Virus record (IMG/VR): IMGVR_UViG_3300022856_000016
Span: 1 to 35,601 of that record
Source: a virus
Direction: 5' to 3' (one strand)
Length of the DNA stretch: 35,601 bases
Part shown: positions 1-22,495 of the stretch, in pieces
Layout: the number at the start of each line of letters is the position of its first letter
Numbering within the stretch: the first letter of the stretch is position 1
Made by a program: the position numbers and the translations under genes
Notes under the pieces: model-generated
The model's database searches: none
What the model was told of the DNA's origin: nothing
Seen by the model: the letters and a program-made list of their open reading frames with translations, nothing else

Positions 1-81
1 GGATGGCTGGTTTGGCTGGATGGCTGGATGGCTGGATGGCTGGATGGCTGGATGGCTGGATGGCTGGATGGCTGGATGGCT
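1..81. repeat. 8-bp tandem array (GGATGGCT)n
   Basis: Eight uninterrupted copies of GGATGGCT occupy 18-81. They are preceded by one more copy (1-8) and a 9-bp variant GGTTTGGCT (9-17). The array is cut by the window start, so it may be longer. No credible gene crosses it. The variant GGTTTGGCT recurs at 132-140 at the head of the next repeat family, so the two families are linked. Arrays like this arise by slipped-strand replication. What it does here is unknown. Confidence 0.9.
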
Positions 82-258
82 TTTCAGATGAATTCGATAA
101 AAGCTCACATTGGAACTGAGTGCCGATGGCTGGTTTGGCTTTTCATATGAATTCGATAAAAGCTCACATTGGAACCGGTTTACAGTTTGGCTTTTCAGGT
201 GAATTCAGTAAAAGCTTCATGTGGAACTGGTTTACAGTTTGGCTTTTCAGGTGGGTCT
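78..258. repeat. Direct repeats of about 52-59 bp, three copies plus a partial
   Basis: Units begin at 78, 137, 189 and (partial) 241, each opening with GGCTTTTCA. The shared core is GAATTCGATAAAAGCTCACA followed by TTGGAAC. Copy 3 has diverged (GAATTCAGTAAAAGCTTCAT). Spacings are 59, 52 and 52 bp, and the fourth copy decays after GGCTTTTCAGGTG. Reading frames through the region owe their openness to the repeats and have no plausible ribosome-binding site. The role is unknown. Position beside the 19-bp array suggests a control or replication region. Confidence 0.85.
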
Positions 259-326: not shown

Positions 327-502
327 GTGTCGGATTTCGCGACACCTGTGTCGCGAAATCCGACACCTGTGTCGCGAAATCCGACACCCGCCAGGTGTCG
401 CGAAATCCGACACATGTGTCGCGAAATCCGACACCTGTGTCGCGAAATCCGACACCTGGCATGTGTCGCGAAATCCGACACCTGTGTCGCGAAATCCGAC
501 AC
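327..502. repeat. Array of eight 19-bp operator- or iteron-like sites
   Basis: Seven direct copies of GTGTCGCGAAATCCGACAC start at 348, 369, 395, 416, 437, 463 and 484. One inverted copy lies at 327-345. All are identical. Each site is an imperfect palindrome with 6-bp arms (GTGTCG/CGACAC) around a 7-bp asymmetric centre, as expected for a dimeric DNA-binding protein. Start-to-start spacing is 21, 21, 26, 21, 21, 26, 21 bp, giving groups of three, three and two. The array lies upstream of the first rightward gene. It could be an operator cluster, replication iterons or a partition site. The sequence does not decide between these. Confidence 0.9.
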
Positions 503-617
503 CTGGTTGGCATGGTACTTGCTCTTCGCGCGGGCTCGTGCGTACGCGCGTACGTGTGCGCGTTCCTATCTTGAGGGTACTGTATTACTTATTTATCACT
601 TTATTGTTACACGAGAC

Positions 618-645
618 TTGTATTATCCTGATAACCACCTATCTT
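618..645 (+). promoter_or_regulatory. Possible sigma70-type promoter of first rightward gene
   Basis: TTGTAT (618-623), a 16-bp gap and TATCTT (640-645) lie in an AT-rich patch (about 565-660) between GC-rich flanks, 50 bp ahead of the first gene. The match to consensus is modest. Another weak pairing, TTGAGG with TATCAC further upstream, cannot be excluded. The stretch 503-694 holds no gene that I can support. Confidence 0.25.
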
Positions 646-694
646 AGTTACATAGCAAGTCAAGAGTCGCACCACCAACACCGGAGAACGGAAC

Positions 695-943
695 ATGACA
701 CAACTAATCGGAACAGTACATCCCGAGAGCGCAGACCCCACCATCCAGAGACGGATGATCGCCGCCGCCCGCGCAGCAGCGTTAGGGACCCTAAGCAAAT
801 CCGCTAAGGATCGAGCGGATAACAACGTGTACTACCTCGAGAACCTATCGGCGAGTAACTTCGCCCACGAGCCCAAGGGGTCACCGAGATTTGACTCCGA
901 CTACTGGACGCGCCTCGCAAAGAGCCACCGACACCCGAGATAA
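695..943 (+). CDS. Small protein of unknown function, 82 aa
   Basis: I do not recognise this protein. The ATG follows GGAGAACGGAAC, a reasonable Shine-Dalgarno. The product is soluble and hydrophilic, with an alanine/arginine-rich helix (residues about 18-40, including RMIAAARAAALG) and a basic C-terminus ending SHRHPR. The stop overlaps another ATG (TAATG, 941-945), typical of translational coupling in packed phage gene clusters. As the first gene after the repeat region it is likely expressed early, which is inference from position only. Confidence 0.65.
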   Translation: MTQLIGTVHPESADPTIQRRMIAAARAAALGTLSKSAKDRADNNVYYLENLSASNFAHEPKGSPRFDSDYWTRLAKSHRHPR

Positions 944-1002
944 TGACAACGCCAGAAACCATCACCGCACCGCACCGCAACACCGCAACTCAGGAGCCCA
1001 CC

Positions 1003-1302
1003 ATGACAGAAGCCACCGACACCGCCACCGCAACCCAAGAAATGCAACGCGTCGAGTACGACGCCAGGATACGCCTGGTCCGGCGCTCCGGAGCCACCAA
1101 CGCCTGCGCCACGGCCCAAGAGTGGTACGACAGAGAGCGCGCCGAATACGACGCGCTGTACAGTGTCTTTGGTGTCAGCACACACCGCCCCAAGATGCAC
1201 CATTTCAGGGCCGAATTTCCCCTAATGGATCCTGCTCGGATCCATTACGGGACACCTGGAATATCTGGGTGGGTTGACGGGATCGATGGTGAGTTCAGTT
1301 AG
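1003..1302 (+). CDS. Protein of unknown function, 99 aa
   Basis: I do not recognise this protein. The ATG at 1003 is preceded by a good Shine-Dalgarno (AGGAG, 992-996). An in-frame ATG at 943 overlaps the previous stop, but it would add 20 residues of Thr/Pro/His-rich sequence encoded by a CA-rich leader and has no good ribosome site, so I prefer 1003. The product has a Thr/Ala-rich N-terminus, then a charged helical region with QEWYDRERAEYDALY, and ends GWVDGIDGEFS. Its 3' half contains a perfect inverted repeat (1223-1247), and a long hairpin follows the stop. Confidence 0.6.
   Translation: MTEATDTATATQEMQRVEYDARIRLVRRSGATNACATAQEWYDRERAEYDALYSVFGVSTHRPKMHHFRAEFPLMDPARIHYGTPGISGWVDGIDGEFS
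1219..1251. repeat. Inverted repeat inside a coding region
   Basis: TAATGGATCC (1223-1232) and GGATCCATTA (1238-1247) form a perfect 10-bp stem with a 5-nt loop. It can extend by three C-G pairs beyond one mismatch (1219-1221 with 1249-1251). It lies within the 3' half of the 99-aa gene and 56 bp before a second, 18-bp hairpin. There is no T-run after it, so it is not a standard terminator. Confidence 0.6.
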
Positions 1303-3830: not shown

Positions 3831-4145
3831 ATGTCAACGCGAGCAGTAAAATACGTAGTTGAAAACTTTTCACACTGGAGCCGTAATGGCTACACTGAGC
3901 GCTACAGTGTCATAACCCGTACCTCGGACGGTAAACGGCTGTCCTTTCAGCACGACGGCACCAGTAACGTACTCAGAGGACTGGCTGAATTGGCAGGGTC
4001 TTACGGGCATCCGGCTACCCTCAGCCTAAACGATACGGATGTATCTTACAGGGAATACCAACGAGCCGCCAAGGACTTACCCTATTTCCACGGATCCGGC
4101 AAGAAGATGGCGAAGCAGCTTCGGGCGGCATTCAGGAAGGTATAG
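3831..4145 (+). CDS. Protein of unknown function, 104 aa
   Basis: I do not recognise this protein. It starts at ATG with a strong Shine-Dalgarno (CAGGAG, 10 bp upstream). The predicted fold is mixed: an N-terminal beta hairpin (KYVVENFSHW...YSVITRTSDGKRLSF), then a helical segment NVLRGLAELAGSYG, and a basic tail GKKMAKQLRAAFRKV that could bind nucleic acid (inference). It ends 10 bp before the next gene. Confidence 0.65.
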   Translation: MSTRAVKYVVENFSHWSRNGYTERYSVITRTSDGKRLSFQHDGTSNVLRGLAELAGSYGHPATLSLNDTDVSYREYQRAAKDLPYFHGSGKKMAKQLRAAFRKV

Positions 4146-4155
4146 GGCAACGACC

Positions 4156-4923
4156 ATGAGAGACTATGCCAAAGATCTAGCGCAACTCAACGCGAAGCAC
4201 GCCGAAGCCGTGACCGCGCTCGAAACCGAATCGGCCATAGCGGCGGAGCTGGGGCGGCTTGGAATACCGGAACCCTCAAGCATCTATGTCACAGATAAGC
4301 CGTTGTACGGACTGGCCCGGGTAACCTTGAGCTATGGTGATAGTCACTGTTTCTACATCGCCAAGCGCAAAACCTGGCAGGATGTGGCCGACTTGGCGAA
4401 GGCGTTCCCGCCGAAGCATACCAAACTCCGATGCATCAAATCAGGATGGACGTCTGTCATGGCTGGTGACTGGTGCGACAGGCAACCGGAAACAGAAAAA
4501 GAGAAATGGACGTCAGAACGGGATATCGCGCCGTTCACCGTCGAGATTGACGCGAACAGCTACACCAATAACGTATGCGTGACCTGGTACGTCACCATAT
4601 CCGGCATGGCGTGCAAGGTGTCAGTATTCCTACCACACAGGTACGGTGCTGCCGCAGAGAGCTTCTGGGTAAGCGCATGGCGAGACCATAAGGCCGGCTA
4701 TCGGTATAAGGCCGCTACGTGCCACGTCCCAGACCGGGCGGCCACACTGCACGGGGAGGACGGTGACGCGCTGGCGGAAGTAGAGAAGCACATGCAAGGG
4801 CGGGGGGACGCCTCGACTATTCACAGATACCGCCTGATATGGGTACCGTACCGTGGAGATGCGGGGGCGACCGGGGCGACCGTTGCGGACTTGGCACGTG
4901 CTATGATAGGCACCAACCAATAG
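4156..4923 (+). CDS. Protein of unknown function, 255 aa
   Basis: I do not recognise this protein. The ATG at 4156 lies 10 bp after the previous stop, with only a weak GGGCAACG upstream. An in-frame ATG at 4039 would overlap the preceding gene by over 100 bp and is unlikely. Residues 1-35 form a charged helix (RDYAKDLAQLNAKHAEAVTALE). The middle is beta-rich (VTWYVTISGMACKVSVFLP). A short Gly/Ala-rich linker (GDAGATGATV) precedes the C-terminal helix. No signal peptide or membrane segment is visible. Confidence 0.65.
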   Translation: MRDYAKDLAQLNAKHAEAVTALETESAIAAELGRLGIPEPSSIYVTDKPLYGLARVTLSYGDSHCFYIAKRKTWQDVADLAKAFPPKHTKLRCIKSGWTSVMAGDWCDRQPETEKEKWTSERDIAPFTVEIDANSYTNNVCVTWYVTISGMACKVSVFLPHRYGAAAESFWVSAWRDHKAGYRYKAATCHVPDRAATLHGEDGDALAEVEKHMQGRGDASTIHRYRLIWVPYRGDAGATGATVADLARAMIGTNQ

Positions 4924-6078: not shown

Positions 6079-6149
6079 CCCGTGCTCTTGGAATAGGCTT
6101 GGTGTTAGTGCACTCCCCTAAAGTGCGTATCTAAAAAAGGACCGTGATC

Positions 6150-7253
6150 ATGTGCGAACGTCTAACAAGTCATCTGTTCGAAATCAATAACGCACCTATT
6201 GTGCACGATATTGGCAGCCATTCCCATACCCGGGACGCTATCGGGATAGGGGATAGTGACGGCCGATACGCGGATGTGGAGTGGCGGGAGGATTCCCCAA
6301 TTATCGAGATCCGTTTTCCAGATAGTTGGGGAGAGGCGCAGAGGGAATATACAGTCGAGTGGTACGCCAGGCACGCCCCGACACGGGATGACTTGGTATC
6401 GTATTGTTTGCTCCACGGGAAAGTTATCTGCCTGCGGAGTGGGGACAACATACCCGAATTGCCCAAATTGCCCGAGTGTGAGCGGCTGAATTGCTATGGG
6501 TGTACGGGCCTGACGGCCCTACCCAAACTGCCCAAGTGTGGGCGGCTGAATTGCTATGGGTGTACGGGCCTGACGGCCCTACCCGAATTGCCCGAGTGTG
6601 GGCGACTGAATTGCTATGGGTGTACGGGCCTGACGGCCCTACCCAAACTGCCCAAGTGTGAACGACTGAATTGTGGCGGGTGTACGGGCCTGACGGCCCT
6701 ACCCGAATTGTCCGAGTGTGCGTGGCTGGAGTGTTACGGGTGTACGGGCCTGACGGCCCTACCCGAATTGCCAGAGTGTGAGGTGCTGGATTGTGGCGGG
6801 TGTACGGGCCTGACGGCCCTACCCGAATTGCCAGAGTGTGGGCGACTAAATTGTCACGGATGTACGGGCCTGACGGCCCTACCCGAATTGCCCGAGTGTA
6901 CGTGGCTGGAGTGTGTCGGGTGTACGGGCCTGACGGCCCTACCCGAATTGCCAGAGTGTGCGTGGCTGAATTGTGGCGGGTGTACGGGCCTGACGGCCCT
7001 ACCCGAATTGCCAGAGTGTGAGGGGCTGGATTGTGGCGGGTGTACGGGCCTGACGGCCCTACCCGAATTGCCAGAGTGTGAGGGGCTGGATTGTTACAGG
7101 TGTACGGGCCTGACGGCCCTACCCGAATTGTCCGAGTGTGCGTGGCTGGATTGTTACGGGTGTACGGGCCTGACGGCCCTACCCAAACTGCCCAAGTGTG
7201 AGTGGCTGGAGTGTTACGGGCCTGACGGCCCTACCCAAACTGCCCGAGTGTGA
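6150..7253 (+). CDS. Cysteine-rich leucine-repeat protein, 367 aa
   Basis: A roughly 100-residue N-terminal domain (with EWREDSPIIEIRFPDSWGE) is followed by about 13 tandem 20-residue repeats. The consensus is LPELPEC, two variable residues, then LxCxGCTGLTA. The LPxLPxxLxxLxC pattern is that of short leucine-rich repeats in phage, giant-virus and effector proteins, which form curved solenoids that bind proteins. Three cysteines per repeat are unusual. ATG 6150 has AAAAAAGGA 8 bp upstream; GTG at 6144 is in frame but too close. The ORF ends early because the last units lack 8 bp each. The target is unknown. Confidence 0.8.
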   Translation: MCERLTSHLFEINNAPIVHDIGSHSHTRDAIGIGDSDGRYADVEWREDSPIIEIRFPDSWGEAQREYTVEWYARHAPTRDDLVSYCLLHGKVICLRSGDNIPELPKLPECERLNCYGCTGLTALPKLPKCGRLNCYGCTGLTALPELPECGRLNCYGCTGLTALPKLPKCERLNCGGCTGLTALPELSECAWLECYGCTGLTALPELPECEVLDCGGCTGLTALPELPECGRLNCHGCTGLTALPELPECTWLECVGCTGLTALPELPECAWLNCGGCTGLTALPELPECEGLDCGGCTGLTALPELPECEGLDCYRCTGLTALPELSECAWLDCYGCTGLTALPKLPKCEWLECYGPDGPTQTARV

Positions 7254-7272
7254 GGGGCTGGAGTGTTACGGG
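6481..7272. repeat. 60-bp coding tandem repeat, 12 full units plus degenerate ends
   Basis: Twelve consecutive 60-bp units cover 6481-7200 in perfect register, followed by two units shortened to about 52 bp. The core TGTACGGGCCTGACGGCCCT is identical in all twelve units, while the bases around the variable codons differ. Each core contains GGGCC-TGAC-GGCCC, so the mRNA can form a small hairpin every 60 nt. Conservation at synonymous sites points to recent expansion or gene conversion. Confidence 0.95.
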
Positions 7273-7451: not shown

Positions 7452-7844
7452 ATGGCAACACCACCACCAACCACCATCAAGAACATCGTTCGGCTTGTCG
7501 CGTATCAGCACATCTATCAGACATCGGAGCTGATAGGTGCAGCACATCGGGCCGCACATATGCCCGAGCTGGATCAACAAGTGATCCTGAACAAGGTCAG
7601 GCACTACGACGTCCCTACTGGGATCTTGCCAAAGTCGAAATATGATAGGCGTATGGTGTTGCGCGTACGGGATAAGTCCCGGGAACCGTGGGCCGACGTG
7701 GCCAGTGTTGAGGTCTGCTATAACCGCATGGTCACCAATAAGGAACTACTGACAACCTTTTTCGGCGCTGTCGTCCGGGCCGCCAAGGCGCACAAAGTCG
7801 GCAACATCAAAATAGTTGTCGCCTGTCGCTTGCGGAAGTCGTGA
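7452..7844 (+). CDS. Protein of unknown function, 130 aa
   Basis: I do not recognise this protein. I place the start at 7452 because AGGAGG (7438-7443) lies 8 bp upstream. The same frame is open back to ATG 7341, which also has AAGGAAG, so a 167-aa product is possible. Against that, the +1 frame over 7345-7449 reads like a short protein tail (YGCYATNDCGYLFGMPV) and stops at TAA 7447-7449, just before this ATG, as expected for a separate upstream gene. The product is helical and basic, with VYNRMV-type and HKVGNIKIVVACRLRKS C-terminal segments. Confidence 0.6.
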   Translation: MATPPPTTIKNIVRLVAYQHIYQTSELIGAAHRAAHMPELDQQVILNKVRHYDVPTGILPKSKYDRRMVLRVRDKSREPWADVASVEVCYNRMVTNKELLTTFFGAVVRAAKAHKVGNIKIVVACRLRKS

Positions 7845-12613: not shown

Positions 12614-15208
12614 GTGGACGTAAGCGCATTCTCCTCCGTGTACGTACATAAGCTGGTATCCTTTATGGATGCCAACGACCCCGAAATCGAGCTATGTGAT
12701 TACATCCAGCTTGATACCCCGTGTGAGCGGGACGTGGTCTTTTCCAGTTACAGGCTGTTCTCTGAAGCGAATCAAGCCTACACACAGCACCCAAGACTGG
12801 CAAAGACTCTGTACCCCGAGCTTGAAACTCAACAGCTCAGTCTGCATTTCCACTTCCTGATCCTCGATATTGATTCCCCCGATCACACCCCTCTGGTGGA
12901 CCTCCCGGACCCCGATGGGTTCATTACGACAGTGATCATGGCGTTGGAGGGTATGGAAACACCCCCCTCATGCGTCTATTCGACCCGTGCAGGCTTCCGA
13001 GCGCTCTGGTACCTGTCTACACCCATAACCGATCCCGACGAGTGGGACGGGCGTCAAATGGGCATGATAAAGGCCACACAGAAGACCGACATACCCGAGG
13101 AGTGTGTTGATGTCACGGCCGCGCAGTGGTCCCGGTTGTTCCGCGCACCCAACGTACACAGGCGTGGGTACCCCGCTATCGAGAGCGTCGACCACAAATA
13201 CTACATGTTCACCGAATCCGAGAGATACTACGATCCCGAGGCCTTCGACATAGCCATCGTGCCCCGCACACTATCTGTGGTGACCGACGTCGAGGCCCCG
13301 GACCCGATCGAAGCCCTCAACCTGGTCGAATGCCTGCAGGATGGTGTGATCCGTCCGACAGTGTTCGGCAAGCTGGCACGTACCAAGCTGAGAGGTACTA
13401 TAGCGTTCAGCGCGGCATTCGATGAATGCTACGAGATTCCCCCCGGCCAACGGGACCACACGGTCTGCTCTATCGTAGGTACTGCCCTGAACCGGCTGCC
13501 CGATGCATCCTTGATTGAGGTGTATGGGTTGTTCGTGGCTGTTGCCCAAGCGATGGGGTTGGACCAGAGTGGGATGCCGTTCACGGAACTCCTCTGGAAC
13601 AAGATTCAACGCTTCGGCGCTCAGCGCGAAATGCAAAAGCAACAAGACAAGGTACTGGAAAAAGAGCTCAAGGAAATGACCCCGATTGAGCGGTGTGTTT
13701 TGGGGATGCAGAAATGGGTTCCCCGGAGCTCAGCCCCCGACCTCTATGCCGATGAGGAGTTGGCTTGGGAGTACATCCGGAGCCACGCATTCGCTAACCA
13801 CGCAGACCGGTATTACAAGCTCACCGAGCACGGGGTCTATGCTACTGCCGGCGACCGTAAGAACCAGCTCCAAGCGACGATAAAGCACGACACGTTCATG
13901 CGAGGCCTGCTCGGGACGGTCAACAACGGTCAGCTACGGGTACCAACCCCGGCAAATATTATGGCAAACAACACATCGGTTGTCTACGATATCGAGATGA
14001 TACCAGAAGCGACCGGCGGACGCATAAGCGACATCAACACAGACCGCGCCACACTGGTGGTCGGTATGTACCGAATCGACCCGAAGCTGGCGTCAGAGTT
14101 CAACGCAGATGTGGACGACTGGCTGAAGAGTTGGACTGGCAACCACTACCAAGACATCTGTCGGTGGATCGCGTGGTCATTGGCGTTCAAGGAAGGCCCG
14201 ACGTGTGCACTATCGATCCAAGGATTCCCGGGTATCGGTAAGGGAATGCTTGTCCAAGGCTTGGCTGAAGCCCTTGAAGTCCCCAACATCATGTATGGGG
14301 AAGAGTTGGTTGGTGATTTCCGCGCCACGCTGAAGAAGACACCCTTCATCTGTGTGAACGAGGGTTGGCCGATCGTCTCTAAGCGTCACCATCCAGCCAA
14401 CCTGGTGCGGGAATTGATAGGCAGTTCCCGGTTAGCCATCGACGAAAAGTTCAAATCGGTTACGACCGTCTACAATCCCTGCAGGCTGATCCTGACGGCG
14501 AATAACGAGAGTGTCGTATCGGCACTCACTAAGGGTCAGATTCTGGAGCGTGCGGACAAGGAAGCCCTGATCTCGCGTGTCTACCACATGGTAGCTCCCT
14601 CGACAGCATTCGGGTGGCTGAGTGCTCGGGGCGGTCGGATGTTCACCAAGGACTGGATCCGGCCCGACGATGGGACAGCAAGCAAAAAGATCCTGGCAAA
14701 GCACTTCCTGTGGCTCTACGAGAACCGACACGACTACGGACACAAGGGCAACCGGTTCCTATGTGACGGATCCGACATGCAGGACAACCAGATACACCGC
14801 GTACTTTCAAGTGACTATCAGTTTACACCGCTCGTTGTTGAGGCTATTTTGAAGCTGATAGGTTTGAGCGTTGGTAATGGCATGATTGGCGGGACATGGG
14901 AACGGGATTCCTACCACTACGATGTCGAAGCAGGCATCCTAGAGATTTCCGCAAAAGCTGTAAACGACATTTACCGTCAGTATTTGATGGCTGTTTCCCG
15001 CGAACCACTTACAATGCACAAGATCAAACAGGTTCTGCAAAACTTTGCGGTACATGTAGATACGGGTAAGTACTACCTCGACTGTGTGCGCCTGATGTCG
15101 TCCGCAATGGGGGATGGATTCACGTGTAAGATCTTAGAGAACATTGCAGCAACACAATATCAACAAAAAACGGGGGAGCGACTTGCAGATAAGTTAAATT
15201 GGTGTTAG
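12614..15208 (+). CDS. Primase (AEP-type) fused to SF3 helicase, 864 aa
   Basis: Makes primers and unwinds DNA at the phage fork. N-terminal half: FLILDIDSPD (D85, D87) fits the catalytic DxD of archaeo-eukaryotic primases, and VYSTRAGFRALWYL (121-134) fits their conserved S-x-x-G-x-R strand. C-terminal half: IQGFPGIGKGML is a Walker A (Lys543), FICVNEGW a Walker B-like motif, and CRLILTANNES the sensor asparagine segment of SF3/D5-like helicases. The far C-terminus resembles a winged-helix region. Start is GTG with AAAGGG upstream; no better ATG exists. Whether the N-terminal active site is intact beyond DxD cannot be judged by eye. Confidence 0.85.
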   Translation: MDVSAFSSVYVHKLVSFMDANDPEIELCDYIQLDTPCERDVVFSSYRLFSEANQAYTQHPRLAKTLYPELETQQLSLHFHFLILDIDSPDHTPLVDLPDPDGFITTVIMALEGMETPPSCVYSTRAGFRALWYLSTPITDPDEWDGRQMGMIKATQKTDIPEECVDVTAAQWSRLFRAPNVHRRGYPAIESVDHKYYMFTESERYYDPEAFDIAIVPRTLSVVTDVEAPDPIEALNLVECLQDGVIRPTVFGKLARTKLRGTIAFSAAFDECYEIPPGQRDHTVCSIVGTALNRLPDASLIEVYGLFVAVAQAMGLDQSGMPFTELLWNKIQRFGAQREMQKQQDKVLEKELKEMTPIERCVLGMQKWVPRSSAPDLYADEELAWEYIRSHAFANHADRYYKLTEHGVYATAGDRKNQLQATIKHDTFMRGLLGTVNNGQLRVPTPANIMANNTSVVYDIEMIPEATGGRISDINTDRATLVVGMYRIDPKLASEFNADVDDWLKSWTGNHYQDICRWIAWSLAFKEGPTCALSIQGFPGIGKGMLVQGLAEALEVPNIMYGEELVGDFRATLKKTPFICVNEGWPIVSKRHHPANLVRELIGSSRLAIDEKFKSVTTVYNPCRLILTANNESVVSALTKGQILERADKEALISRVYHMVAPSTAFGWLSARGGRMFTKDWIRPDDGTASKKILAKHFLWLYENRHDYGHKGNRFLCDGSDMQDNQIHRVLSSDYQFTPLVVEAILKLIGLSVGNGMIGGTWERDSYHYDVEAGILEISAKAVNDIYRQYLMAVSREPLTMHKIKQVLQNFAVHVDTGKYYLDCVRLMSSAMGDGFTCKILENIAATQYQQKTGERLADKLNWC

Positions 15209-15245: not shown

Positions 15246-16988
15246 ATGACCCGAGCAAAACGCAAGTATACATCGGCATCCGCCATATCCACGGCAAGTC
15301 AATGCCAGCGTAAATGGTTCATCGAGAAGGTTTGCAAGCTGGCAACACCTCCATTCTCCGCAGGGGCATTCGGTACTGTATTTCACGCAGTCCTTGAGCG
15401 GTATTTCCTCAACCAAGAATTGTACCCCAAGGGGTGGTTCATGTACCGTGAGGACTTCGGGAAGGGGTTCCTTACCAGCGTCAACAGGTCTGACCAGCAG
15501 CTCATCATCAGCCTTGCGACCGCAGGGATCGAGGGCGGCTACCTGGAACACACACCGGGAACTCAGGTTGAATTGCCGATCCGTCGCAAGCTTTGGGACG
15601 CTCCCAACGTGACCTTGATGGGCTCGATCGACAAGGATACCGACTTCGGAATCGAGGATCACAAGACTTCAAGCAACACCAGATACCTACTGTCCCCTGA
15701 TGACCTACTCTCTGATATTCAGATGACGATTTATGCTCGGGATTGGCTCGACAGGCACCCCAAAGAACCCTCGGTCAACCTTCGGCACAACCAGTTCGTC
15801 AAGCGACCACCACGTGCTGATAAGGCCTCGATAGACGCACCTCGGGATTTCGTGTTGTCCACGTACCAAGAAAAGATCACGCCCGTCGTGATCGAAATGT
15901 TGAGTTACTGGGATCTGAACTGCGAACCCTTGGATATCCCAGGGGACGAATCAGGAGCTATGTGCCAAAAATATGGAGGTTGTCCGTGGGCAGAAGCGTG
16001 TAACGGAGGGTGTACCCTCGAAATCCTACATCAGCGACACACTGTGATGCAAGCCGAAAAGAACAAAGAAGCAGCGAAAATTGAAAAGAAACTGCTTCGC
16101 CAACAAGGAGAATCGAAAATGCCATCATTGAAAGACATTCTGGCCGCCAAAGGTGCATCTGGAGTAGCTACGACACCGTCGGCTGGGGCAACCGTAGCTC
16201 CGGCAGCGCAGGCAGGGGGTATGGTCATGTCCCCGGCCGCCCCCGTTGCAGCGGCAGCGATCCCCGTTGCAGCGGCAGCGATCCCCGTTGCAGCGGCAGC
16301 GATCCCCGTTGCAGCGGCCCAGGGAGACCGTGCGCCTTGGGGAGTGGTCGGTTGTTCCATGTGCTCTGGGAAAGGCCCCCTGTTGGGGCTCAAAGCGGAC
16401 GGCAACCCCTGTCCCCTGTGTTCCGCTCGGACGTCGGATGTGTCCATGAAGCCGGATAACTTCGACGTAACAGTGGACGCTATGGGTAGTATCTCTATTA
16501 CCCAGAAGTGTGCTGCAGCTCCCGCAGCCGCCGTCGCGGCTCCGGTGCCTCCGGCTGCGTCGGCCCCCCCTCCTGCCGTTACCATTGCCCCGGAAAAGGT
16601 CGCTGCAGGTCCGGCAGTTCATGCCGCCCCCGCAGCGCAGGCACCCGCCCCCATAGCCGGAGATCCCGTCAGCAAGGGTTTCATTCTGGTTATCAACGCG
16701 GTTCCGTACGATGTCAAGTTCGGAGCAACGGTCAGCCTCGCTGATGTGATCTCGGCAGCCCAGGAAAGCCTCGCCCAGGATCCCGCATATGTTGGGGCGA
16801 ACACGTTCGACAAGCGCGACATGATCGCAGCTCATGTGAAGGCCGCTGTTTCCGGGGACGGATCTCTTGACGGTGATTTCGTTGTCGCCCCATACGTCTC
16901 CAAGGGGACCGGGCGTGTCGAAGAGATCGTCATCAGAGAGTTGATGATGTGCGAAAACTGCAACGGCATGATCGTGGCGGCACTCTAA
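15246..16988 (+). CDS. Cas4/RecB-like nuclease with Ala/Pro-rich zinc-binding tail, 580 aa
   Basis: Residues 1-290 fit a PD-(D/E)XK nuclease with an iron-sulfur cluster: C20 (ASQCQRKWF), H47 (FGTVFHAVLE), D129 (GSIDKD), E137 and K140 (IEDHKT), Q159 and Y163 (DIQMTIYA), then C240, C246 and C252 in CQKYGGCPWAEAC. Family members resect DNA ends in recombination and replication. Residues 292-580 are a different module: Ala/Pro-rich linkers with a seven-residue repeat, a zinc motif (C370, C373, C389, C392), a beta-rich domain (GFILVINAVPYDVKFG) and a terminal CENC. A strong internal ribosome site and ATG (16119, Met292) stand at the domain boundary. Confidence 0.82.
   Translation: MTRAKRKYTSASAISTASQCQRKWFIEKVCKLATPPFSAGAFGTVFHAVLERYFLNQELYPKGWFMYREDFGKGFLTSVNRSDQQLIISLATAGIEGGYLEHTPGTQVELPIRRKLWDAPNVTLMGSIDKDTDFGIEDHKTSSNTRYLLSPDDLLSDIQMTIYARDWLDRHPKEPSVNLRHNQFVKRPPRADKASIDAPRDFVLSTYQEKITPVVIEMLSYWDLNCEPLDIPGDESGAMCQKYGGCPWAEACNGGCTLEILHQRHTVMQAEKNKEAAKIEKKLLRQQGESKMPSLKDILAAKGASGVATTPSAGATVAPAAQAGGMVMSPAAPVAAAAIPVAAAAIPVAAAAIPVAAAQGDRAPWGVVGCSMCSGKGPLLGLKADGNPCPLCSARTSDVSMKPDNFDVTVDAMGSISITQKCAAAPAAAVAAPVPPAASAPPPAVTIAPEKVAAGPAVHAAPAAQAPAPIAGDPVSKGFILVINAVPYDVKFGATVSLADVISAAQESLAQDPAYVGANTFDKRDMIAAHVKAAVSGDGSLDGDFVVAPYVSKGTGRVEEIVIRELMMCENCNGMIVAAL
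16105..16121 (+). promoter_or_regulatory. Internal Shine-Dalgarno and in-frame ATG in the nuclease gene
   Basis: AAGGAG (16105-16110) stands 8 bp before ATG 16119 (Met292), in frame with the 580-aa ORF and exactly where the nuclease domain ends and the Ala/Pro-rich module begins (MPSLKDILAAKGAS). The site is stronger than that of the gene's own first ATG, whose nearest purine run (AAGGGAAA) is 10 bp or more away. A separate 289-aa product is likely to be made. Confidence 0.6.
16241..16318. repeat. 21-bp coding tandem repeat
   Basis: CCCCGTTGCAGCGGCAGCGA plus T repeats at 16241, 16262 and 16283, with a partial copy from 16304. It encodes the heptapeptide PVAAAAI in a flexible linker. Copies are identical at the DNA level, so the length probably varies between relatives. 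Confidence 0.9.
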
Positions 16989-16991
16989 GCC

Positions 16992-19088
16992 GTGGGAATA
17001 TTCGCCAACCAACTCAAAGCGTCTCCCCCCGCACCGGCTACGGTACGAAATACCAAGCTGGCGCAGATCCTGAGCGATAGCAAAAGTAGGTATCACATAT
17101 CACCAGAAGTCAAGCGCATCTGTGATATGCCTCTGAAATGCGAGGTCTCCGAAGACTTGATACAGGCATTATCAGAGAACTATCTCCAGCCTGAAATCCG
17201 GGCACAAGGGATCGCCTTACGGCCCTCCCAAGCAGATGGTCTGATCCAGTTTGCTGCAGCTGATGGATTGTTCGCGCCTATCGGTGCGGGGGGAGGCAAA
17301 ACTCTCCTCTCGCTTCTCCTGGCCCACATCGGGCACGCGGAGATGGGACTCAAGAAGATCATGCTTTTGGTACCTGCGCAACTGGTTGGCAAGTTGCTGG
17401 ATCATGAGCTGTCTTACTACCGCAAGTGGATCAATCTATCGTTTTCCGTGCATTGCCTCGCTGGCCGGCCGAAGTCCAGGCGCCTACACATCGCCCGATC
17501 GAACCGCCCCGGGCTTTACATCTACAGCTACTCCATGTTGTCTTGCCCTGACGCTGAAGATGTGTTGAGTCTCGTAGCCCCGGAAATGATCATCGCTGAT
17601 GAGGCCCATTGCATCGCAGGCCAATCCGCCCGAGCCGATCGGTTTTCCCGGTACATGGATTTTGCCCAACCGATCTTTGTTCCGATGTCTGGTACCATGA
17701 CCAGCAAAAGGATTTCAGATTACGCTAATCTGGCTCGGGCAGCATTGAAAACCAACAACTTCCTGCCGACCAGTAACATGCTTACGAACGACTGGGGTGC
17801 TGTTCTCGATGCTGATACCAATTACATGGATAGGGTGCCCGCTGGAGTCTCTGGGGGGCTGGATTACGTGTACGGATGGGCCTTGAACTCAGCTCCAGCC
17901 AACACGATCACCTACCCTGCTATCACGGCATCCGGACTCAGGCAGGCGTACTGCTACCGCATGGCCACGACGCCAGGAGTATCGGTCAGTAGTGTCTTGG
18001 ATTGTGAAGCGTCCCTGCTGATCCACAACAAGCCAACCACCATGCCTGAAGAAGATCCAGCTATCGTGCAGCTCAAGAAGCACATGGATGTTGTCGACGA
18101 GTTGATGATAGCTCCTAATGGAGATGAGATCTCCCACGCGTTCCATACATTCAAGTGGCAGTCAGAGCTTACTGTGGGGTTCTACAACGAGCTGTACTGG
18201 CCTACCGTAGGCATCGTGGCTAAGAAAGCCGAGATCTCCGACCACGATGCCTTAGACCTACTGTCGAGGTCTCAGATGCACTTTGAGGCGCACCAGCAGT
18301 ACAACCGGGATCTCCGAAAGTGGATAGGCTACAACGCGAAAAAAGGCTTGGATACCCCGATGCTTATAGGCAACAGCATGTACAATCACGGGGCTGAGGC
18401 TGTTGGGGAACCTCTGTACGCCAGTTGGTCACACATGAAGTCCCTGGATTTTGACGGACGTATCGAGCGCATCTCGCGTGCCGTCCGTGTCTGCGACTTC
18501 AAGATCAAAGCTGCAGCATCGTTTGCAAAGGAGTACCGAAAAGAGTTCCAGAAGGGCATGCTGTTTTGGTATAATCACCAGGAGATCGGGCGTTGGCTGT
18601 TTGAGGTATTCAGTGCTGAAGGTTTGGACCCCCTGCTGTGTGAGGCTGGTGACGCTGCAGCGAAGATCTTCCTCGATGAAGAAGCCTGCAAAGGTCGAAT
18701 CATCTTGGCAACATACAACAGCCACGGTACCGGCCGGAACCTGCAGTTCTTTGATACCCAGTATTTCGTAGAGTGGCCACGTCCCGCCAAGACAGCGGAG
18801 CAGGTCATTGCCCGAGAGCACCGGCTGGGCCAGAAGTCAGACGAAGTGACCTGCATCACAAACATGTCCACCGACTTCGATTATATGTGCTTCGCAGCGA
18901 CCCTTAACGATGCCCTGTACATTCACCAGTCGAACGGTACACCTCAACGGTTGATCCTGGCTGCCTACGAACCACGGCCCCGTATCTTTCCGCCCCACGT
19001 CCTCAGGGAGCGTGGATTCACTCTGGTCTACGACCTCAACAACGACCTCTTGCACAAACTTGAAGCGATGGGGGTTGACCATGTCTGA
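16992..19088 (+). CDS. SF2 DEAH-type helicase, 698 aa
   Basis: Motifs appear in order: a Q-like LRPSQADG (77-84), Walker A GAGGGKT (98-104), motif Ia LLVPAQLV, Walker B DEAH (203-206), motif III SGTMTSKR, and in the second RecA domain ILATYNSHGTGRNLQ (motif V) and EQVIAREHRLGQ (motif VI). The EHRxGQ form of motif VI is that of Snf2-like and related DNA translocases. It lies between nuclease and polymerase genes, so it probably acts in replication or recombination. The start is GTG, 4 bp after the previous stop, with a weak GGCGG upstream. It overlaps the next small gene by 8 bp. Confidence 0.85.
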   Translation: MGIFANQLKASPPAPATVRNTKLAQILSDSKSRYHISPEVKRICDMPLKCEVSEDLIQALSENYLQPEIRAQGIALRPSQADGLIQFAAADGLFAPIGAGGGKTLLSLLLAHIGHAEMGLKKIMLLVPAQLVGKLLDHELSYYRKWINLSFSVHCLAGRPKSRRLHIARSNRPGLYIYSYSMLSCPDAEDVLSLVAPEMIIADEAHCIAGQSARADRFSRYMDFAQPIFVPMSGTMTSKRISDYANLARAALKTNNFLPTSNMLTNDWGAVLDADTNYMDRVPAGVSGGLDYVYGWALNSAPANTITYPAITASGLRQAYCYRMATTPGVSVSSVLDCEASLLIHNKPTTMPEEDPAIVQLKKHMDVVDELMIAPNGDEISHAFHTFKWQSELTVGFYNELYWPTVGIVAKKAEISDHDALDLLSRSQMHFEAHQQYNRDLRKWIGYNAKKGLDTPMLIGNSMYNHGAEAVGEPLYASWSHMKSLDFDGRIERISRAVRVCDFKIKAAASFAKEYRKEFQKGMLFWYNHQEIGRWLFEVFSAEGLDPLLCEAGDAAAKIFLDEEACKGRIILATYNSHGTGRNLQFFDTQYFVEWPRPAKTAEQVIAREHRLGQKSDEVTCITNMSTDFDYMCFAATLNDALYIHQSNGTPQRLILAAYEPRPRIFPPHVLRERGFTLVYDLNNDLLHKLEAMGVDHV

Positions 19089-20035: not shown

Positions 20036-22495
20036 ATGTCAGAGACAGTAAACAACTTAGTTGGGATGGATACAGAGACGTTCCTGATAGGTCAGGAAGC
20101 ACCGTTCCCGAGGCCAGTCTGTGTTCAGTTCTCAGATTTCGATAAGGGTCAGGTTGACCCCGGGACCGTATCAGTTCTCGATGGGATGGAATCGATTTTC
20201 GAGATCACTGCAGATTCAGGCGAGAACAACATTGTCACAGTGTGGCACAACGCGAGCTACGACTTGCAGGTCATGTGCCAGCACCGACCGGACCTGCTAC
20301 CCAAGATGATCGAGATGGTTCGATCTGGACACGCCAAGTGTACTTTGATCCGCGAGCAGATGCTGAACCTGGCACAGTATGGCCATCCTAGCATGATCGA
20401 GATCAACGGAGTGTTCAAGCAGATCAGCAACGCCCTTGTAGAGTGCGTTCGTCGGTATTTCGGTGTCGACCTGTCTGCATCGAAAGCGGATGACTCTTGG
20501 CGCATGAATTACGCATCTCTGATCAATGTGCCGTTAGCGCAGTGGCCACCCGAGGCTGTCGAGTACGCGGCAGACGATCCGGTGTGGGCTGCCAAGCTGT
20601 ACATGGCCCAGGAGAAGCGCCGGGAAGAATTCATCGATCGCGTCGGCGTGGATCCCCTGAAGCAGGAGACCTTCCGTACCGAGAAGTCTTTCCTACTCAC
20701 GTTCCTGACACAGGTAGGCTACGACGTGGATCCGATACGGTTCTGGGAGATTGAGCAAGGGATCCTGGATAACTTCAACGAGACACTATTCCCCCTGCTC
20801 ACAGAGGCGACCATCTATCGCCCGAAGACACCTCCCCAACCGTTCGCCAACGGCGCTAAGGACCACACTGAAGACTGCTTCGCCAACAACAAGAGTCCTC
20901 AGTACGACAAGAAGCGTGCAACTGGGAAGAACAAAGAAACGTGCGACTGCCCTCCGAAGATGACGGGAGGCAAAAAGGCCGGCATACAAACCAAGATATT
21001 GCAGGCCTACGTGTGGGAGCTGTGTCGGGGATCGGATGATTTCCAAATCTCGTTCACTAAGTCTGCAAACCATGCCGATGTTGGGCACTTCTCGAAACAC
21101 CAATGGGCATCGGATCCATTAGTTACCACAAGGCTGATGACCTTTGTTGCTGTTAACAAGGAATTCCTTGAGGCACATAAGCAGCTTGACCCTATCGTAC
21201 TGGAATATGCCGACTACCAAGAGTACTCCAAGCTAGTATCAAGCTACCTCCCCAGCCTCCGAGAAGCCAGCGAAAATGGGTACCCTGTTAGGTCTCAATA
21301 CAGCGTCGTAAAGAGTACCGGGCGCACGTCAGCTAGAGACGCTAGCAAGGGCAAAACCAAAGAGAAGTTCTACTGCTCTTGGAACAGCCAACAGGTTGAC
21401 CCTCGTGTCCGCACAATCTGCATTGCTCCGAAGGACATCGGGTTCACCGAAATTGGCAACCGCTACGAGTGCCCGGGGATGGATTGGGTCATGGCATCCA
21501 TTGATTATTCCGCGATGGAGCTTGGCACCTGGAGCCAACGGTGTATCGATCTGCTGGGGTTCAGTGATTGCGCTACCATGATCCTAAACCAGGGCAAGGA
21601 CGCGCACATGTACCTGGCTGGGGCTCTGGCAACGCAATTCGATCCGGACTTCGCTGCAGCCTACGCAGGGGATAGTCTGATGGCTACCTACGAGTTCCTG
21701 GAAGCTATCAAGAAAGACACATCTTTTTGCGATCTCCCATTGTTCATCGAAACCTGGAAAGACGCAGGAAGATCATCAAAACCGACGTGGAAGGATTTCT
21801 GCAAGCACTACCGCACGTTCGCCAAGCCTGTCGGTTTGGGCTATCCCGGGGGTCTTGGTGTCCGCACCCTCTGCACCATGGCCGCTGCAACGTACCACTT
21901 CAAGGTAACGGAAGCGGAATCAAAGCAGGCGCGTGAAATCTGGAAGAGCACTTACCGGGAAGCCCAGGCAGCGTTGACCTATGTCAACAACGAACTTGTC
22001 GATCCCTCCCGCGACATCATGTGGAAAGAGGATCCACGGACGGGCAATAGGAAGCGCGAAGTGCGTTACGCTTACACGACCGCCGGCGGATTGTACCGTA
22101 GCAACTGCACGTACACTGCAGCGGCAAACGGGTGCTTCCTCCAGGCTCCTGGCGCCGAAGGGGCGTTGGCCGGCATGGCGAATACGATTCGGGAAGCGTA
22201 TTCCGGTAGTGGGATACTCGGTCCGGACAGCTATGGACTGCAGACAGTCCCCATCAACTTTGTCCATGATGAGGGTATCTTCTTGCTACGGAGAGATGGT
22301 AACGAATCAAAGCGGGCGTTTGAACTTGCCGATTTGATGGTTGCAGGTATGAAGACCGCCACCCCGGATGTAACTGCAGGAGCCGAGCCTGTGTTGATGT
22401 TCAGATGGGACAAGAAAGCTGAAGCAGAGTACGATTCGGACGGGGTTCTGATCCCGTGGGACGAAGACGATAGGCCAGAAAGGGAAATGATATGA
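20036..22495 (+). CDS. polA: Family A DNA polymerase with 3'-5' exonuclease, 819 aa
   Basis: Replicative phage polymerase. Exonuclease: MDTET (D12, E14), HNASYD (N72, D76) and EYAADD (Y177, D181) give ExoI-III, so proofreading looks intact. Polymerase: motif A SIDYSAMELG (D490), O-helix/motif B RTFAKPVGLGYPGGLG (R593, K597), motif C VHDEG (H744-D745-E746). The residue equivalent to E. coli Phe762 is Leu601. A Lys/Gly-rich insert (about 265-330, with Cys pairs CFANN and CDCPP) lies between the domains. No 5'-nuclease domain is present, as usual for phage enzymes. ATG follows AGGAAGGTAAGG. The stop overlaps the next start. Confidence 0.95.
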   Translation: MSETVNNLVGMDTETFLIGQEAPFPRPVCVQFSDFDKGQVDPGTVSVLDGMESIFEITADSGENNIVTVWHNASYDLQVMCQHRPDLLPKMIEMVRSGHAKCTLIREQMLNLAQYGHPSMIEINGVFKQISNALVECVRRYFGVDLSASKADDSWRMNYASLINVPLAQWPPEAVEYAADDPVWAAKLYMAQEKRREEFIDRVGVDPLKQETFRTEKSFLLTFLTQVGYDVDPIRFWEIEQGILDNFNETLFPLLTEATIYRPKTPPQPFANGAKDHTEDCFANNKSPQYDKKRATGKNKETCDCPPKMTGGKKAGIQTKILQAYVWELCRGSDDFQISFTKSANHADVGHFSKHQWASDPLVTTRLMTFVAVNKEFLEAHKQLDPIVLEYADYQEYSKLVSSYLPSLREASENGYPVRSQYSVVKSTGRTSARDASKGKTKEKFYCSWNSQQVDPRVRTICIAPKDIGFTEIGNRYECPGMDWVMASIDYSAMELGTWSQRCIDLLGFSDCATMILNQGKDAHMYLAGALATQFDPDFAAAYAGDSLMATYEFLEAIKKDTSFCDLPLFIETWKDAGRSSKPTWKDFCKHYRTFAKPVGLGYPGGLGVRTLCTMAAATYHFKVTEAESKQAREIWKSTYREAQAALTYVNNELVDPSRDIMWKEDPRTGNRKREVRYAYTTAGGLYRSNCTYTAAANGCFLQAPGAEGALAGMANTIREAYSGSGILGPDSYGLQTVPINFVHDEGIFLLRRDGNESKRAFELADLMVAGMKTATPDVTAGAEPVLMFRWDKKAEAEYDSDGVLIPWDEDDRPEREMI

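Follow-up and report, generated by a model that had tools for sequence, protein, structure and literature searches.

An extragenic array of eight identical 19-bp sites is a candidate replication origin of an uncultivated phage

A linear virus fragment of 35,601 nucleotides in IMG/VR (IMGVR_UViG_3300022856_000016; hereafter the window) carries, at positions 327 to 502, an array of short repeats that we consider here as a candidate origin of replication. The array comprises eight exact copies of the 19-mer GTGTCG-CGAAATC-CGACAC (GTGTCGCGAAATCCGACAC). Exact matching bears out an earlier note on this DNA, which had described one inverted and seven direct copies without a mismatch, and whose intervals of 21, 21, 26, 21, 21, 26 and 21 bp between site starts were likewise recovered. 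The same note called the 19-mer palindromic, which holds for its perfect 6-bp arms, but the palindrome is interrupted by an asymmetric 7-bp centre (CGAAATC). No copy of the 19-mer appeared in 100 shuffles, and allowing up to three mismatches added none to the eight. Throughout the ~55 kb known of this phage, which include an overlapping contig (G001), the sites are confined to the array.

The array is extragenic, as evident by the fact that no conserved open reading frame (ORF) crosses positions 327 to 502. A coding-repeat explanation is ruled out by frame shifts, because the local periods of 8, 52 and 68 bp disrupt all frames, and a CRISPR (clustered regularly interspaced short palindromic repeats) array is ruled out by spacers of just 2 or 7 bp. 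As a single strand the region folds much better than shuffled sequences (z = -13), although this is expected of any such array and carries no weight. BLAST searches with the array region against 50,697 phage records returned no match, and thus the proposal that this arrangement has not been described from phages holds within that search; the left arm had no match among plasmids. Single exact matches to the 19-mer do occur in four IMG/VR contigs, within a conserved coding sequence resembling a tail protein (GGVAKSDTIPAMLTPGE). These effectively represent one homologous place and were set aside as chance or coding matches.

The 68-bp super-period that had been noted is present as two tandem units (Table 1), and it looks like a tandem duplication. 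The two units differ at four positions (346, 389, 391 and 394), every one of which lies in a spacer. If the four differences fell at random, the probability of all landing in spacers (11 of the 68 positions) would be 4e-4; the 19-mers have thus been held constant while the spacers drift. At 10.5 bp per turn, the sites have phases of 0, 0, 0, then 0.48, 0.48, 0.48, then 0.95, 0.95. Therefore, the arithmetic of the earlier note is correct: 21 bp is two turns, 26 bp is about two and a half, and the middle group faces the opposite side. Its suggestion of functional wrapping around both faces of the DNA is not supported. Lambda iterons are spaced 20, 24 and 23 bp apart (read from the lambda record), and the related sites in HTH_36-type initiator genes described below are mostly 70-93 bp apart. 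The half-turn alternation is most simply a by-product of the duplicated 68-bp unit. Because tandem copying is the simplest source of the offset and lambda spacing is not strictly phased, we do not take two-faced wrapping as established.

The arms of the array sites are identical to those of a site class in the initiator genes of other phages, defined as a 19-bp GTGTC-N9-GACAC sequence with an A/T centre. When viral contigs were scanned for pairs of GTGTCG-N7-CGACAC, both matches fell inside initiator-like genes, namely an HTH_36 gene in one contig (L029) and, in the other (L028), a gene with a weak Phage_rep_O match beside a DnaB-like ORF. The same scan of genomic contigs gave one match in an HTH_36 gene (Paracoccus) and two beside parB genes. 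From 80 relatives of the HTH_36 initiator, we then chose by hand a reduced set of 41 loci, whose members are not all independent. At these loci, which carry 30 distinct site sequences, GTGTC-N9-GACAC occurs 63 times in the initiator-gene regions (the match plus 300 bp; 36 kb) versus once in 334 kb of flanking sequence. The 9-bp centre of the window's sites, which played no role in selection, matches the centre profile of the HTH_36-gene sites (p ~0.01).

A blind scan for closely spaced site pairs yielded 18 viral contigs, and in 16 of the 18 the pair lies within one ORF; the pattern read backward, used as a control, matched a single contig. HTH_36 or Rep_O domains were present in seven of the 11 ORFs scanned, some under the curated cut-off, and the site sequences of six contigs that were not scanned recur in scanned ones. 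In 10 of 14 HTH_36 loci, the local 60-bp segment of lowest stability starts at the last site, and in five it has the lowest stability anywhere in the locus. On these sequence patterns, GTGTC-N9-GACAC in HTH_36 genes (L040, L032, L044-L123) probably marks a widespread class of intragenic phage origins. The lone match of the backward control (L143:3413-3453) is itself an array of A/T-centred palindromes of the TGTGA-N7-TCACA type, perhaps another iteron array.

The flanks of the array contain a second element of interest. Beginning 74 bp to its right is an A/T-rich segment (positions 576-655) that is less stable than any other 80 bp in the 35.6-kb window, and the first early ORF begins ~190 bp downstream of the array. 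To the left, the extreme end of the contig (positions 1-81) is non-coding and consists of ten copies of GGATGGCT, followed by three 52-bp repeats up to position 236. Directly past the second early ORF, at positions 1308-1349, there is a perfect 18-bp inverted repeat with a 6-base loop, which is possibly a terminator or attenuator.

Table 1. Positions of the array, its neighbours and the features compared with it (window coordinates unless another record is given)
Feature	Position	Strand or orientation	Details
Putative iterons	327-345(-), 348-366, 369-387, 395-413, 416-434, 437-455, 463-481, 484-502(+)	one inverted, seven direct	exact matches
Two tandem 68-bp units	340-407, 408-475	+	source of the 21, 21, 26 pattern; differences in spacers only
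Putative DNA unwinding element	576-655		69% A+T; nearest-neighbour stability scan and composition
Non-coding left flank	74-236		52-bp repeat, three copies; neither the 8-bp nor the 52-bp period is divisible by 3, frames broken
Two small ORFs that start the early genes to the right of the putative origin	695-1302	+	82 and 119 amino acids; no family assigned
DUF5906 protein, candidate replication protein	12614-15208	+	864 amino acids; Pfam PF19263, 3e-8
Phage helicase	16992-19088	+	PHROGs phrog_62; rightward replication module
DNA polymerase	20036-22495	+	PHROGs phrog_17; rightward replication module
ctsHD2 site GTATCAAnTAsTTACC	L142:47500-47890 (MW202816)	both orientations	at least 4 copies

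Such a location upstream of the early genes would also suit a multi-operator, where cooperative binding of a phage regulator to the eight sites would switch early and late transcription units that diverge from each other. Operators for dimeric proteins are palindromic, as these sites are, and the region appears divergent. However, no sigma-70-like promoter was found in positions 1-1600 (a search that covered one promoter type), eight copies without variation is a large number for an operator, and elsewhere the motif clusters in initiator genes. We therefore consider this explanation unlikely, although operator and origin roles are not mutually exclusive.

The wider genome can be partly reconstructed with G001 (IMGVR_UViG_3300022826_000003; 42,715 bp), which is identical to positions 12525-35598 of the window and extends 19.6 kb past its right end. 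Within the window, the replication genes run rightward and encode the thymidylate synthase ThyX, a DUF5906 protein, an exonuclease, a helicase and a DNA polymerase. The G001 extension carries leftward late genes, including those for a major head protein and a head protease, with the large terminase gene last. The two known ends, the terminase end of G001 and base 1 of the window, do not overlap, leaving a sequence gap between them. Two further repeats lie in coding sequence: ~13.6 copies of a 60-bp repeat at positions 6462-7272, among the early genes, that code for a protein resembling leucine-rich-repeat proteins (ORF 6144-7253), and a perfect 21-bp tandem repeat of 3.7 copies at positions 16241-16318, in the exonuclease gene.

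A distant relative helps to place the array within this layout. Caudoviricetes ctsHD2 (MW202816) has a circular genome, and its helicase, exonuclease and polymerase are held in common with the window phage at 24-26% identity. Its genome layout is the same, with a largely non-coding divergent region of ~1 kb between the terminase and the early genes, and by analogy we place the array in the corresponding region. Thus, as judged from this analogy and from the joined contigs, the array apparently lies between diverging terminase-led late genes and replication genes. Other searches for relatives were unproductive. None was found for the polymerase or the DUF5906 protein in phage records, IMG/VR scans with the polymerase and terminase matched solely contigs of the window phage itself, and neither an IMG/VR scan with the protein encoded at positions 4039-4923 nor a D5_N search gave a match. 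AlphaFold models of the DUF5906 protein and of the protein encoded at positions 7452-7844 were unusable, with mean pLDDT (predicted local distance difference test) values of 33 and 48.

The proximity of terminase raises the alternative that the array is a packaging signal, in which pac- or cos-associated repeats are bound by a small terminase whose gene would be expected beside it. With G001 joined, the gap facing the array is indeed bordered by the large terminase, the final gene known on that side. However, no small terminase was identified, and homologs of the motif reside in initiator genes rather than terminase genes, making this explanation quite improbable.

Partition offers another alternative, in which the array is a parS-like site for a ParB-type protein. 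Palindrome pairs of the form GTGTCGCA-N3-TGCGACAC, which share the outer design of the array sites, adjoin parB genes in the Alkanindiges and Ottowia contigs (L030:131-182 and L031:4830-4883), where they are possible parS sites. Against this explanation, a six-frame search of the known 55 kb (the window and G001) found no ParB_N domain, although the positive control matched, and we regard a partition role for the array as remote. The earlier note had offered an iteron origin, a partition site or a multi-operator; the initiator-gene motif and the adjacent weak duplex favour the first of these, whereas the lack of a ParB_N match in the known 55 kb disfavours the second.

We conclude that the array, together with the A/T-rich segment, is probably a replication origin in the style of lambda ori or SPP1 oriR. 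We infer the protein binding, the DNA opening and the identity of the acting protein in the following scheme. Dimers of a winged-helix-type initiator would bind the 19-bp interrupted palindromes, and the bound initiators would build a nucleoprotein complex that causes the neighbouring weak duplex to open. The replicative helicase or primase would then be loaded at the opened segment.

Several observations weigh against an origin. The array lies outside genes, unlike the other homes of the motif, and look-alike palindromes are present at the two parB loci. A GC-richer stretch of 74 bp sits between the array and the weak segment, and the latter could be a promoter instead. GC skew speaks for an origin in having its minimum at the array-side junction (with its maximum at 24.5 kb), but the signal is confounded with gene direction, which it tracks, and so cannot discriminate. 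Finally, no HTH_36 (PF13730) or Phage_rep_O protein was detected in six frames of the window and G001, in searches whose positive controls matched. A custom profile of initiator N-termini also had no match in these sequences.

It is possible that the sequence gap or undetected homologs leave room for an initiator. This protein may be a diverged product of one of the unassigned early genes, the DUF5906 protein, which might act at the array, or the product of a gene in the gap next to terminase, or it may come from an outside supply. If the last were the case, the array would recruit an initiator from a co-resident phage, prophage or plasmid to fire the origin, or would titrate it. The sites do fit those in the initiator genes of other phages while no cognate initiator gene is detectable in the window phage. 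However, this absence is based on sequence searches and an incomplete map, and the phage has its own polymerase and helicase. An outside initiator is therefore very unlikely in our estimation.

Origins of uncultivated phages are seldom located from sequence. Here, the motif connects an array in non-coding DNA with probable intragenic origins that form a broad class in phages, and it gives an orphan phage a concrete candidate origin. Should the phage lack the initiator, or should the initiator represent a new family, the array could serve as bait to find it. In addition, the 63-to-1 enrichment supplies a search rule for origins in phages of the HTH_36 type.

Among known systems, lambda ori offers the most direct terms of comparison. 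Lambda iterons are 19-bp imperfect inverted repeats that are bound by O and adjoin an AT-rich tract (PMC7466680), and the O protein occupies them as dimers (PMC5043065). Inverted repeats of 19 bp with an A-run centre likewise make up the window's array, at intervals of 21 or 26 bp versus 20-24 bp in lambda. An A/T-rich tract lies on one side of both, although in the window it is 74 bp off rather than directly adjacent. Lambda has four non-identical iterons within gene O, whereas the window has eight identical extragenic sites. The arms also differ (GTGTCG versus the ATCCC type of lambda), and no O-like gene was found in the window phage.

SPP1 has an extragenic oriR plus an oriL inside gene 38 (PMC6316719), demonstrating that a lambda-like origin can be extragenic too. 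Its origins resemble the candidate origin in combining repeats with an AT-rich unwinding element, but the SPP1 repeats are direct and bound by gp38, and the second origin lies in gene 38. In the window phage, neither a second array nor a gp38-like gene was found. In plasmid iteron origins of the P1 and RK2 type, helically phased initiator sites are arrayed close to an A/T-rich region (PMC5043065). The window shares such an array near such a region, but its sites, like those of lambda, are inverted repeats, and no Rep protein of the plasmid type was identified.

In ctsHD2, one site occurs four times or more in the divergent region, with copies in both orientations, and the GC-skew minimum lies there too. 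That site is unrelated in sequence to the 19-mer, and its copies are loosely spaced. The sites in HTH_36 genes of proteobacterial and other phages (e.g. Labrenzia phage vB_LagS-V1, GTGTCGCGAAATGAGACAC) share the 19-bp GTGTC-N9-GACAC sequence and the A/T centre, and they are accompanied by a weak duplex, there at the last site. However, their setting is the initiator gene itself, and they are fewer and for the most part more widely separated, whereas the window array is outside genes in a phage without a detectable HTH_36 protein. Because the array is not inside an initiator gene and its initiator was not found, we do not class it with the HTH_36 intragenic origins. The best-supported conclusion is that the array is probably an origin that would work like lambda ori, yet is a variant outside that intragenic class.
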